A stretch of DNA of 39,809 nucleotides from Chloroflexota bacterium. GTDB taxonomy: Bacteria > Chloroflexota > Anaerolineae > Aggregatilineales > Ch27. Shown piece by piece: positions 29,762 to 31,829 of the stretch. A program made the translations under genes and the position numbers. The number at the start of each line of letters is the position of its first letter. Position 1 is the stretch's first letter. The notes beneath the pieces were generated by a model that made no database searches, was not told the DNA's origin, and saw only the letters and a list, made by a program, of their open reading frames with translations. The DNA is taken from NCBI GenBank assembly GCA_019873685.1, contig JAIOAT010000032.1:1-39809 (forward strand). Direction: 5' to 3'.

Positions 29762-30667
29762 ATGATACAGGGCTTTAAGCAGACACAAGATACCGTTTAC
29801 AGTCTGGCGCGTTGTCAGGACGTATGCTTTGTCGCTCGCTTTTCGGGGATTTATCGGTCGGATGATGGTGGGCGCACCTGGTCGTTAGCCTACAAAGCGC
29901 CAGATACAGATGGCCCGCTGGCCACCACTACGTTAGCAGCTACTGGCCACGATATATTCGCCGGCGTCAAAGGAGGCATCCTGCGTTCCAGCAACTGCGG
30001 GGCGGATTGGTTTGCTGCAGTGCTTCCCCCTCCTGCACCGTTAATCAGCGCTCTGGCCATCTCGCCGAATTTTGAGCAGGATGGCGTTCTGATCGCCGGT
30101 ACAGCTGAAGATGGCATCTTTGTTTCCACAGATCGCGGCGTCCAGTGGCAACCATGGAACTTTGGTCTGCTTGATCTGGCGGTATATGCGGCTGCTTTTT
30201 CGCCCCATTTCGGCAATGACCAGACCATCCTCATCGGAACGCAAACCGGTATTTTCCGCAGCAAAAATGGTGGGCGGGCGTGGCGTAGCGTGTCGTTCCC
30301 AATGGACGCTGCCCCCGTACTCAGCCTCTGCCCTTCGCCAGATTTTGGACGAGACCATCGCTGGTTCGCTGGCACAGAAGCTAATGGGTTGTATGTCTCA
30401 GAGGATAACGGGGATAGGTGGGAGCGTATAGCAGCAGATCACATCAGTGGCGCAGTCAATGCTATTATCATTCCCCCAGCAGCCTCCCAGGAACTCTGGG
30501 TCTTACTGGATGATCGCCTTATCATTTCCCGCGATTCAGGCCAGCACTGGATGACTTCATCAATCTTTTCCCCAGAGTCGCAGGCCCTTGCGGTTCTACC
30601 CGGAAACGGGCAACAACACCCTACGCTGGTAGGCTTTGCCGACGGGACAATCTTGCCTCTCACCTGA
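29762..30667 (+). CDS. Cytoplasmic six-Asp-box beta-propeller protein
   Basis: A 301-residue protein made of repeated blades. Six Asp-box/BNR motifs of the S-x-D-x-G-x-x-W type are visible, at about residues 29-40 (YRSDDGGRTW), 73-83, 119-129 (VSTDRGVQW), 164-174, 210-220 (VSEDNGDRW) and 254-263 (SRDSGQHW). This resembles sortilin/YCF48-like propellers, not an active sialidase, since no catalytic arginine triad or FRIP motif is seen. There is no signal peptide or membrane segment. ATG at 29762 follows GAGG by seven bases and starts ten bases after the chaperonin-like gene, so both should be made together. A partner or substrate-presenting role for the chaperonin is inference; assembly-factor functions are known for YCF48-type propellers. 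Confidence 0.8.
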   Translation: MIQGFKQTQDTVYSLARCQDVCFVARFSGIYRSDDGGRTWSLAYKAPDTDGPLATTTLAATGHDIFAGVKGGILRSSNCGADWFAAVLPPPAPLISALAISPNFEQDGVLIAGTAEDGIFVSTDRGVQWQPWNFGLLDLAVYAAAFSPHFGNDQTILIGTQTGIFRSKNGGRAWRSVSFPMDAAPVLSLCPSPDFGRDHRWFAGTEANGLYVSEDNGDRWERIAADHISGAVNAIIIPPAASQELWVLLDDRLIISRDSGQHWMTSSIFSPESQALAVLPGNGQQHPTLVGFADGTILPLT

Positions 30668-30701
30668 GTCATCAGGCCATCATAACTGAAGTTGTGCCGC
30701 G

Positions 30702-30716
30702 CCAGAACGGTTCTGG
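30702..30716. other. Palindrome between convergent genes
   Basis: CCAGAAC-G-GTTCTGG is a perfect 7+1+7 inverted repeat between the propeller gene and the truncated GTPase. It lacks a T-run, so a terminator role is unsupported; a protein-binding site is possible. Confidence 0.3.
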
Positions 30717-30775
30717 ACTGACGCCAGTGACTTCTACCCGATCAGAGTGACCCGCGCCCTGGCGAATTCCGGCGT

Positions 30776-31525
30776 CTAACTGCTCGCTATGACCGACGAA
30801 TTGGAGGCAATCTTCGGGCGCAAGGTGGATCTGCTGTGGAGGGCTGCCCGAACCACATCCGGCGCAGGCACTTCCGGCGGTCTATGCGGTGTGATGATGC
30901 CCTGCTCTGAATCCAGATAGTCGATCTTGTTCAGCACAAAGAAAAGACGGGCAACATGTGGCTGCAACTGTTGCAGAAAGGCAACCTCCGCTGCCGTAAT
31001 TGGCGGATCAGCTGACAGCACGACTACAGCAGCATCACAGCGTGGAAGGAAATCCAGCGTAGTGTCCGTGTTGTGCTGAAGCGTTGAGCCTATACCCGGC
31101 GTATCAATCAGGACGATCCCTCTCTGGAGTAAATCCGCCGGATAGAAAAGATCAACCCGGCTGACATTCTCGCGATTCTTTGGATTGTTTGCCTCATTCA
31201 CAAAGTCACCAAGGCGTTCCACGCAGTAACGTTCAGGGGCGCGACCGTTAGCAAAGCGAATCTCAAACTCTGGTTGTGGACCGTAGTGCAGAAAAACAGG
31301 CACAAGCGTCACCGGCAAGACGCCATCGGGCAGAATCTCCGCTCCCAGCAGCGCGTTGATCAGCGTGCTTTTTCCCCGCTTGAACTGACCCATTACTGCC
31401 AAGTGAAGCTGCCCTGATGACAGCCGTTCACGCAGCATGGCAGCATCCTGTGCTAGTTCCGCTGGCAGGGCGGGACACTCTTGTACCAGCGCTATGAACC
31501 GGTCAATCAACTGCTGTAACATCAT
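30776..31525 (-). CDS. Truncated dynamin-like GTPase (G domain only)
   Basis: A 249-residue reading frame with a dynamin/Era-like G domain: P-loop GQFKRGKST (46-54), G2 threonine in PVTLVP, G3 DTPGIGS (141-147) and G4 NKID (199-202). Bacterial dynamin-like GTPases usually run to 550 residues or more with long helical bundles and a membrane paddle. Here similarity ends near residue 208 (base about 30901), and the last 40 residues look random and run antisense to a nucleotidyltransferase-like fragment. No other frame restores the helical part, so this is a rearrangement rather than a simple frameshift. AGGGAGAACC precedes ATG at 31525. The gene sits behind a fluoride-riboswitch-like leader. It is probably a remnant, though a free G domain could still be stable. 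Confidence 0.75.
   Translation of the reverse strand: MMLQQLIDRFIALVQECPALPAELAQDAAMLRERLSSGQLHLAVMGQFKRGKSTLINALLGAEILPDGVLPVTLVPVFLHYGPQPEFEIRFANGRAPERYCVERLGDFVNEANNPKNRENVSRVDLFYPADLLQRGIVLIDTPGIGSTLQHNTDTTLDFLPRCDAAVVVLSADPPITAAEVAFLQQLQPHVARLFFVLNKIDYLDSEQGIITPHRPPEVPAPDVVRAALHSRSTLRPKIASNSSVIASS
30780..30848 (+). pseudogene. Fragment of a MNT-type nucleotidyltransferase
   Basis: On the plus strand, in frame with ATG at 30789, the peptide DELEAIFGRKVDLLWRAA resembles the C-terminal part of small MNT-domain nucleotidyltransferases (HEPN/MNT antitoxin type), where a (D/E)LE...GRKVDL motif is common. A stop codon (30777-30779) precedes it and the frame ends soon after, so no gene can be intact. 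It overlaps the abnormal 3' end of the GTPase frame. The match is short, hence modest confidence. Confidence 0.4.
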
Positions 31526-31596
31526 GGTTCTCCCTGCTTCTCTGCAATCGATTTTGCGATAGTAGCAAGCATCATCAACTGCCCGGATACTGCGGC

Positions 31597-31715
31597 AAAA
31601 GAAAAAGCCTCTACCCGCCCACTTTGTGTGGAGGTAGAGGCTATTAGTCCTGCAACAAGGACACTTTGGTCGCTGTTTGCCGACGCGAGCGAGCCTCATC
31701 GCTTCATATTCTTCA
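31597..31715 (-). ncRNA. Putative fluoride riboswitch (crcB motif) with intrinsic terminator
   Basis: Read on the minus strand, P1 is AGCG (31703-31700) with CGCU (31691-31688) closing the 8-base loop AUGAGGCU. GAGGCU of that loop can pair perfectly with AGCCUC (31642-31637) as the pseudoknot. Hairpin GUCCU (31662-31658) with AGGAC (31651-31647) precedes CUAAUAGCCUCUACC. This matches the Thermotoga petrophila fluoride aptamer with compensatory changes in P1, P3 and the pseudoknot (C-G to U-A). A 20-base insert with a small GUCG/CGAC hairpin separates P1 from the conserved AAA. The 3' pseudoknot strand is also the 5' arm of a 10-bp terminator (AGCCUCUACC/GGUAGAGGCU, then UUUUUCUUUU), the standard fluoride-switch design. 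It would control the GTPase 72 bases downstream. Confidence 0.8.
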
Positions 31716-31721
31716 ATGATA

Positions 31722-31750
31722 ATTATAACGCTTCTGGCCTAGATCGTCAA
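31722..31750 (-). promoter_or_regulatory. Near-consensus sigma-70 promoter for the riboswitch transcript
   Basis: On the minus strand TTGACG (31750-31745) and a perfect TATAAT (31727-31722) are separated by exactly 17 bases. Transcription would start near 31715, about a dozen bases before the aptamer. Confidence 0.8.
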
Positions 31751-31829
31751 AGCTATGCACGTTCGCGTTCGGCCATTCAGGGGCCGCTGGCGGATTTTCG
31801 AGTACAATGGAAGCGTTCTTCAGCGCCAC

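Follow-up and report, generated by a model that had tools for sequence, protein, structure and literature searches.

A probable fluoride riboswitch with an extra helix and its link to a dynamin-like GTPase family

We find it very probable that a minus-strand element in a Chloroflexota contig is a transcriptional ON fluoride riboswitch carrying an additional helix, P2, that its target is a dynamin-like GTPase family belonging to the fluoride regulon, and that the gene copy beside it is truncated. The element lies in the 39,809-nucleotide (nt) stretch of DNA analysed here, referred to as the window. The crcB motif, or fluoride riboswitch (RF01734), reportedly goes back to Weinberg 2010 and Baker 2012. 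On our reading, a membrane-remodelling GTPase family would join the exporters, antiporters and inhibited enzymes of the known regulon, and bacterial and archaeal dynamins of unknown purpose would gain a first testable stress signal. Moreover, the standard model misses or half-misses the extra-helix branch, so that the regulon is undercounted.

Anatomy of the element and its extra helix

The promoter, P1, its loop, P3, the 6-base pair (bp) pseudoknot and a terminator that reuses a pseudoknot strand, all described in the initial annotation, are present on the minus strand between 31750 and 31597, as read from the sequence. The pairing percentages in the following list come from an alignment of 71 distinct copies (A2), which was fitted to the structure with the pseudoknot excluded, and are biased upward because of this fit.

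31722 to 31750, minus strand: sigma-70-type promoter, TTGACG-17-TATAAT, with 11 of 12 consensus bases (one in the region, 0.4 expected)
31633 to 31704, minus strand: putative fluoride (crcB-type) aptamer, extra-helix variant, from alignments and covariance models (82 bits with R1, whose training set includes this copy; 18.9 bits with R2; none with RF01734)
31688 to 31703, minus strand: P1, AGCG (31703–31700) with CGCU (31691–31688); double-sided changes in 3 of 4 pairs, 97.5% paired
31692 to 31697, minus strand: 5′ strand of the pseudoknot, GAGGCU, within the P1 loop; 99.5% of cells paired with 31642–31637, 3 of 6 pairs covarying
31668 to 31687, minus strand: 20-base insert read from covariation as helix P2, GUCG (31684–31681) with CGAC (31672–31669), and G31686–C31668 across a bulge
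31663 to 31667, minus strand: J13, AAAGU, by alignment to J13 of other copies
31647 to 31662, minus strand: P3, GUCC (31662–31659) with GGAC (31650–31647); 4 of 4 pairs covarying, 93% paired
31637 to 31642, minus strand: 3′ strand of the pseudoknot, AGCCUC, which is also the base of the terminator (sequence, RNA fold and covariation)
31597 to 31642, minus strand: intrinsic terminator predicted by RNA folding, with the hairpin at 31642–31606 and a U-rich tail at 31605–31597
30908 to 31525, minus strand: N-terminal remnant of a dynamin-like GTPase gene (Dynamin_N match and homologue alignment)
30660 to 31780, no strand assigned: segment missing in the sister species, where its two sides map to separate contigs (C11 and C14)

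The −35 element (TTGACG) starts at 31750 and the −10 element (TATAAT) ends at 31722, separated by a 17-nt spacer. The AGCG and CGCU strands of P1 enclose the 8-nt loop AUGAGGCU, and P3 is followed by UAAU, then by AGCCUC, which forms 6 bp with the loop, and then by UACC. The 5′ arm of the terminator hairpin begins with this same pseudoknot strand, a layout shared by the relatives, and the terminator is the dominant predicted fold of the 3′ region (z of −3.8 against shuffled sequences).

Across the 71 copies of A2, 96% of all cells belonging to P1, P2, P3 or the pseudoknot hold standard pairs, a figure subject to the same upward bias, and double-sided changes occur in 16 of the 20 pairs; when the partners are slid by one to three columns as a control, pairing falls to 34–52%. 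An unfitted alignment of 15 copies gives the same covariation picture. The 20-base insert after P1 had initially been regarded as unusual. It is indeed absent from the description of RF01734 in a 2026 study, which comprises P1, the pseudoknot and P3 (PMC13273304), but it recurs as a covarying helix in about 40 of the 71 copies, with double-sided changes at every P2 pair. Comparison of the copies indicates that the insert folds into an additional helix, P2, where P1 meets J13, and this adds to the published description; we claim no priority in noticing such inserts.

Membership of the fluoride riboswitch family

A minus-strand search with the RF01734 covariance model, which the initial annotation had proposed as a check, went against it: with the model of Rfam release 15 (gathering cut-off, 34 bits), the window copy fell below threshold, receiving no score when the whole window was scanned, and none in a 301-base search, whether at the gathering score or at E values of up to 5. 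The same model, run on the element's own genome, did not match the element and returned only weak matches elsewhere, at 20.8 bits and below. By contrast with these scores, the element lies far beyond chance, because about a dozen copies recovered by blastn of 61 relatives share a near-invariant core, identical amid free flanks; three of these copies, in addition to the element itself, lie in its own genome (blastn). A presumed relative at L041 was rejected as a false blastn match.

Intermediate copies connect the element to the known family. A covariance model built from 15 copies including that of the window (R1) has matches in 21 of the 154 genomes searched from the order and in 74 of 400 from the phylum. 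Among 20 scanned phylum loci, 13 reach the RF01734 cut-off and nearly all the rest match below it, and the insert-bearing copies fall on both sides, with L105, L100, L107, L101 and L110 passing at 34–40 bits and L038 and L039, relatives of the window copy from the blastn search, remaining below at 27 and 25 bits. R1 alone spans both the window copy and members accepted by RF01734. Furthermore, a second model built from canonical and insert-less copies only, without the window's group (R2), recovers the window element at 18.9 bits (E of 0.02 in 696 kb). This continuity of scores through R1, RF01734 and R2 therefore suggests that the window copy is the divergent end of one continuous family, and the relatives indicate that the RF01734 miss is a limit of the model's reach.

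The genes behind related switches were compared with the known regulon. Copies in the phylum precede CrcB (with a DUF190–CBS protein), Voltage_CLC, Na_H_Exchanger, NADHdh and MutS_V genes, as assigned by Pfam, the NADHdh-family subunit being a formate-hydrogenlyase-type gene, and an enolase, read from the sequence, follows the switch at L167. CrcB lies behind copies in the element's own genome (C62) and in G020 according to Pfam, and in G035 by sequence, and a CLC gene (Voltage_CLC in Pfam) lies behind the copy at L248. DUF6062 operons and MFS transporters likewise follow switches; all the other gene kinds match the fluoride-switch lists in the crcB section of PMC2864571 and the main text of PMC11139923. 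This agreement with the known fluoride regulon, together with the continuity through R1 and R2, supports the identity of the element as a fluoride riboswitch, and the original crcB-motif assignment is borne out at the level of sequence comparison.

Several neighbourhoods of related switches have features of their own. In the element's own genome (C25, L029) and at L032, L034, L035 and L038, a switch precedes an operon that starts with DUF6062 and continues with coiled-coil-like proteins. A switch on C16 of the same genome (L030:3582-4826) lies directly 5′ of an MFS transporter gene, and MFS-like proteins follow switches in several other genomes, possibly representing a further fluoride-response transporter. 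At L240, L241 and L245, proteins of ~160 residues with a hydrophobic N-terminus come directly after switches, and L240, the only one tested, has no Pfam match. At L047 (G009:C110:4468-4598), tandem fluoride aptamers that are 7 bases apart and both above the Rfam cut-off precede a CrcB-like gene and may form a double fluoride switch.

Dynamin-like genes and fluoride switches

The next gene had been annotated as a dynamin-like GTPase, which holds for an N-terminal remnant. Dynamin_N (PF00350) matches it with an E value of 1.2e-29 (2.6e-26 and 3.9e-27 for intact homologues; Pfam), and the start codon (ATG, 31525) is preceded by a good Shine–Dalgarno site (AGGGAG, 31535–31530). Identity of ~50% to full-length homologues covers about the first 206 of some 600 residues, as far as 30908, and the open reading frame continues to 30776 without homology; the gene is short by about 390 residues, the C-terminal two thirds, and the neck and trunk part is absent. 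The missing part was sought across the same genome, where the sole match was a different dynamin pair on C33, and the flanks in the sister species (C11 and C14) carry neither switch nor dynamin. The stop in homology and the break in synteny therefore point to a gene fragment left where a rearrangement occurred, or conceivably to an assembly fault. The truncated gene is probably dead, and with ~390 residues lost the window's switch may regulate nothing useful. The stretch 30660–30908, between the remnant and a BNR-repeat gene, shows no homology that could be recognised in the one stretch tested and is probably a scar of the rearrangement; a reading of the sequence past the break as a reversed nucleotidyltransferase fragment was abandoned, as Pfam gave no confirmation.

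Homologous loci, whose comparison had been suggested in the initial annotation, also have dynamin-like genes after the switch. In G019, from the same order, a fluoride switch with 33.8 bits in RF01734, just below the cut-off, lies ~60 nt before a dynamin N-terminus that is 54% identical to the window's. In other families of the phylum, the switch lies directly 5′ of an intact dynamin gene (G427) or is followed by a HEAT-repeat gene and then the dynamin (G191). Because many genomes, G019 and G427 among them, have the same switch–dynamin order, we reject the earlier suggestion that an exporter gene was lost by rearrangement; what is missing is the dynamin gene's own C-terminal two thirds.

We searched for homologues by protein alone across 84,980 species, and examined the best 64 loci and 16 more distant dynamins. 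Of the 64 closest loci, 41 carry a fluoride switch on the strand of the dynamin gene, no more than about 500 nt upstream of it; 37 of these score at or above the RF01734 cut-off and 4 were recovered with R1 or R2. Aptamer and start codon are separated by a median of 31 nt, and in most loci the dynamin is the first gene after its own switch. About nine further loci of the 64 have a switch elsewhere in the locus, and about a third of the close homologues have none detected directly upstream, so the pairing is common and not obligatory. None of the 16 most distant dynamins has an upstream switch, a result that for the last six comes from R1 and R2 alone.

A tree of 77 proteins places every switch-bearing member in one 62-member group (SH-aLRT 98), and the label for switch presence changes 13 times, as compared with 26 after shuffling. 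According to record titles and tree origins, the switch-bearing clade covers roughly 16 phyla, archaea included, although many loci are metagenome-assembled and binning errors may therefore misplace single phyla: Bacillota, Thermodesulfobacteriota, Myxococcota, Nitrospirota, Planctomycetota, Acidobacteriota, Actinomycetota, Spirochaetota, Campylobacterota, Atribacterota, Calditrichota, Sumerlaeota, Latescibacterota, a Microgenomates record, the window's phylum and two archaeal phyla. In several dynamin loci there are two to four fluoride switches; the additional ones precede, as judged by eye, CrcB-, enolase-, Na+/H+ exchanger-, UspA (universal stress protein)- and MutS-like proteins. Taken across genomes, these sequences indicate that the dynamin-like target is real and recurrent, no local accident, and that the family forms a conserved part of the fluoride regulon. 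The target had been called unexpected, and fairly so: in the searchable literature, with Baker 2012 and the supplements of Weinberg 2010 outside its scope, fluoride riboswitch and dynamin never occur together, and fluoride resistance and dynamin co-occur only in a chromogranin paper. Dynamin-like GTPases are unnamed in the crcB section of the main text of PMC2864571 and in the main text of a 2024 review of the fluoride response (PMC11139923), which contains neither 'dynamin' nor 'GTPase'.

Two further arrangements were seen near dynamin genes. G191:C98:29607-38177 (L168, L223 and L162) packs four or more fluoride switches into 9 kb, a fluoride island in which the switches precede a MutS-like gene, the HEAT-repeat and dynamin pair, and others. 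Proteins with a zinc ribbon and HEAT repeats, encoded after switches, adjoin dynamin genes in two phyla (L308:6158-6421 and L223:393-884) and may be a partner.

Proposed mechanism and comparison with known systems

The predicted structure of an intact homologue from Moorella sulfitireducens, a cultured strain (L264; mean pLDDT of 84.9), includes the helical neck and trunk fold, and matches IniA over 521 of 615 residues (Z of 24.9, rmsd of 7.8), BDLP over 524 residues (Z of 20.5, rmsd of 9.1) and mitofusin constructs too. NCBIfam has no family above its cut-off for the four members tested. Bacillus DynA takes part in surveillance of the membrane against antibiotics (PMC8844932), an IniA-type promoter of mycobacteria responds to cell-envelope drugs (PMC5760070), and fluoride enters the cell as HF (PMC11139923). 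By analogy, the IniA/BDLP fold, the precedents of DynA and the IniA-type promoter and the entry of HF make protection of the membrane under fluoride our likeliest guess for the protein.

We propose that the nascent RNA would fold P1, P2 and P3, and that the pseudoknot would form once fluoride and Mg2+ are bound. The pseudoknot would sequester AGCCUC and block the terminator, allowing the polymerase to read into the dynamin-like gene, whereas without fluoride this strand would go into the terminator. P2 is most likely a tolerated stabiliser at the P1/J13 junction that leaves the fluoride site untouched. The family, with its IniA/BDLP-type fold, would maintain or repair the membrane under HF stress; in the window's genome the switch survives, with its gene truncated and probably dead. 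More broadly, we lean slightly towards an ancient, unnamed arm of the fluoride response, in which bacterial and archaeal dynamin-like GTPases remodel or seal membranes on HF entry under the control of fluoride riboswitches, including the extra-helix form missed by Rfam.

Alternatively, the dynamin gene could be a passenger in mobile fluoride-resistance islands with no role in the fluoride response, as suggested by the several dynamin loci with two to four switches and other fluoride genes and by the position of the window copy at a synteny break; the placement of most dynamins first after their own switch, at a median of 31 nt, and the spread of the clade over roughly 16 phyla make this unlikely. 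The protein could also be made to offset GTPases poisoned by AlFx, BeFx or MgFx, and not for membrane repair, comparable to extra enolase or pyrophosphatase, and the regulon is known to raise the output of enzymes that fluoride inhibits (PMC11139923, PMC5533749). However, the family does not belong to the housekeeping GTPases and folds like the dynamins that remodel membranes, and we consider compensation somewhat less probable still. That the aptamer drifted to another ligand, with the extra helix and the lost Rfam score as signs of a new specificity of the kind seen among variant classes of other riboswitches, could draw on the missing RF01734 score, on P2 and on the unusual DUF6062 and MFS targets in the same genome, but is very improbable, as the core positions known from the crystal structure of the Thermotoga petrophila aptamer are unchanged in the window copy, close relatives precede CrcB in its own genome (C62), G020 and G035, and insert-bearing copies pass RF01734.

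As a fluoride switch, the window copy has P1, the loop pseudoknot, J13, P3 and the conserved GAUGA and CUACC in common with the RF01734 riboswitch, and its family likewise has a terminator using the pseudoknot strand and fluoride-regulon genes. It differs in the covarying P2 between P1 and J13, and the RF01734 model, made of P1, pseudoknot and P3, gives it no score. The known regulon (crcB, CLC-F, Na+/H+ antiporter, enolase, pyrophosphatase, mutS and formate hydrogenlyase) has the same switch and the same loci as the dynamin-like genes. BDLP, IniA, DynA and C. jejuni DLP1/2 share GTPase motifs and a long helical trunk with the fluoride-linked family, whose fold matches BDLP and IniA over the full length, yet with only ~17% identity in the structure alignments. 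Unlike these known bacterial dynamins, the family is about 600 residues long, has a C-terminal half without a strongly hydrophobic stretch, and appears to have its expression tied to a fluoride switch.
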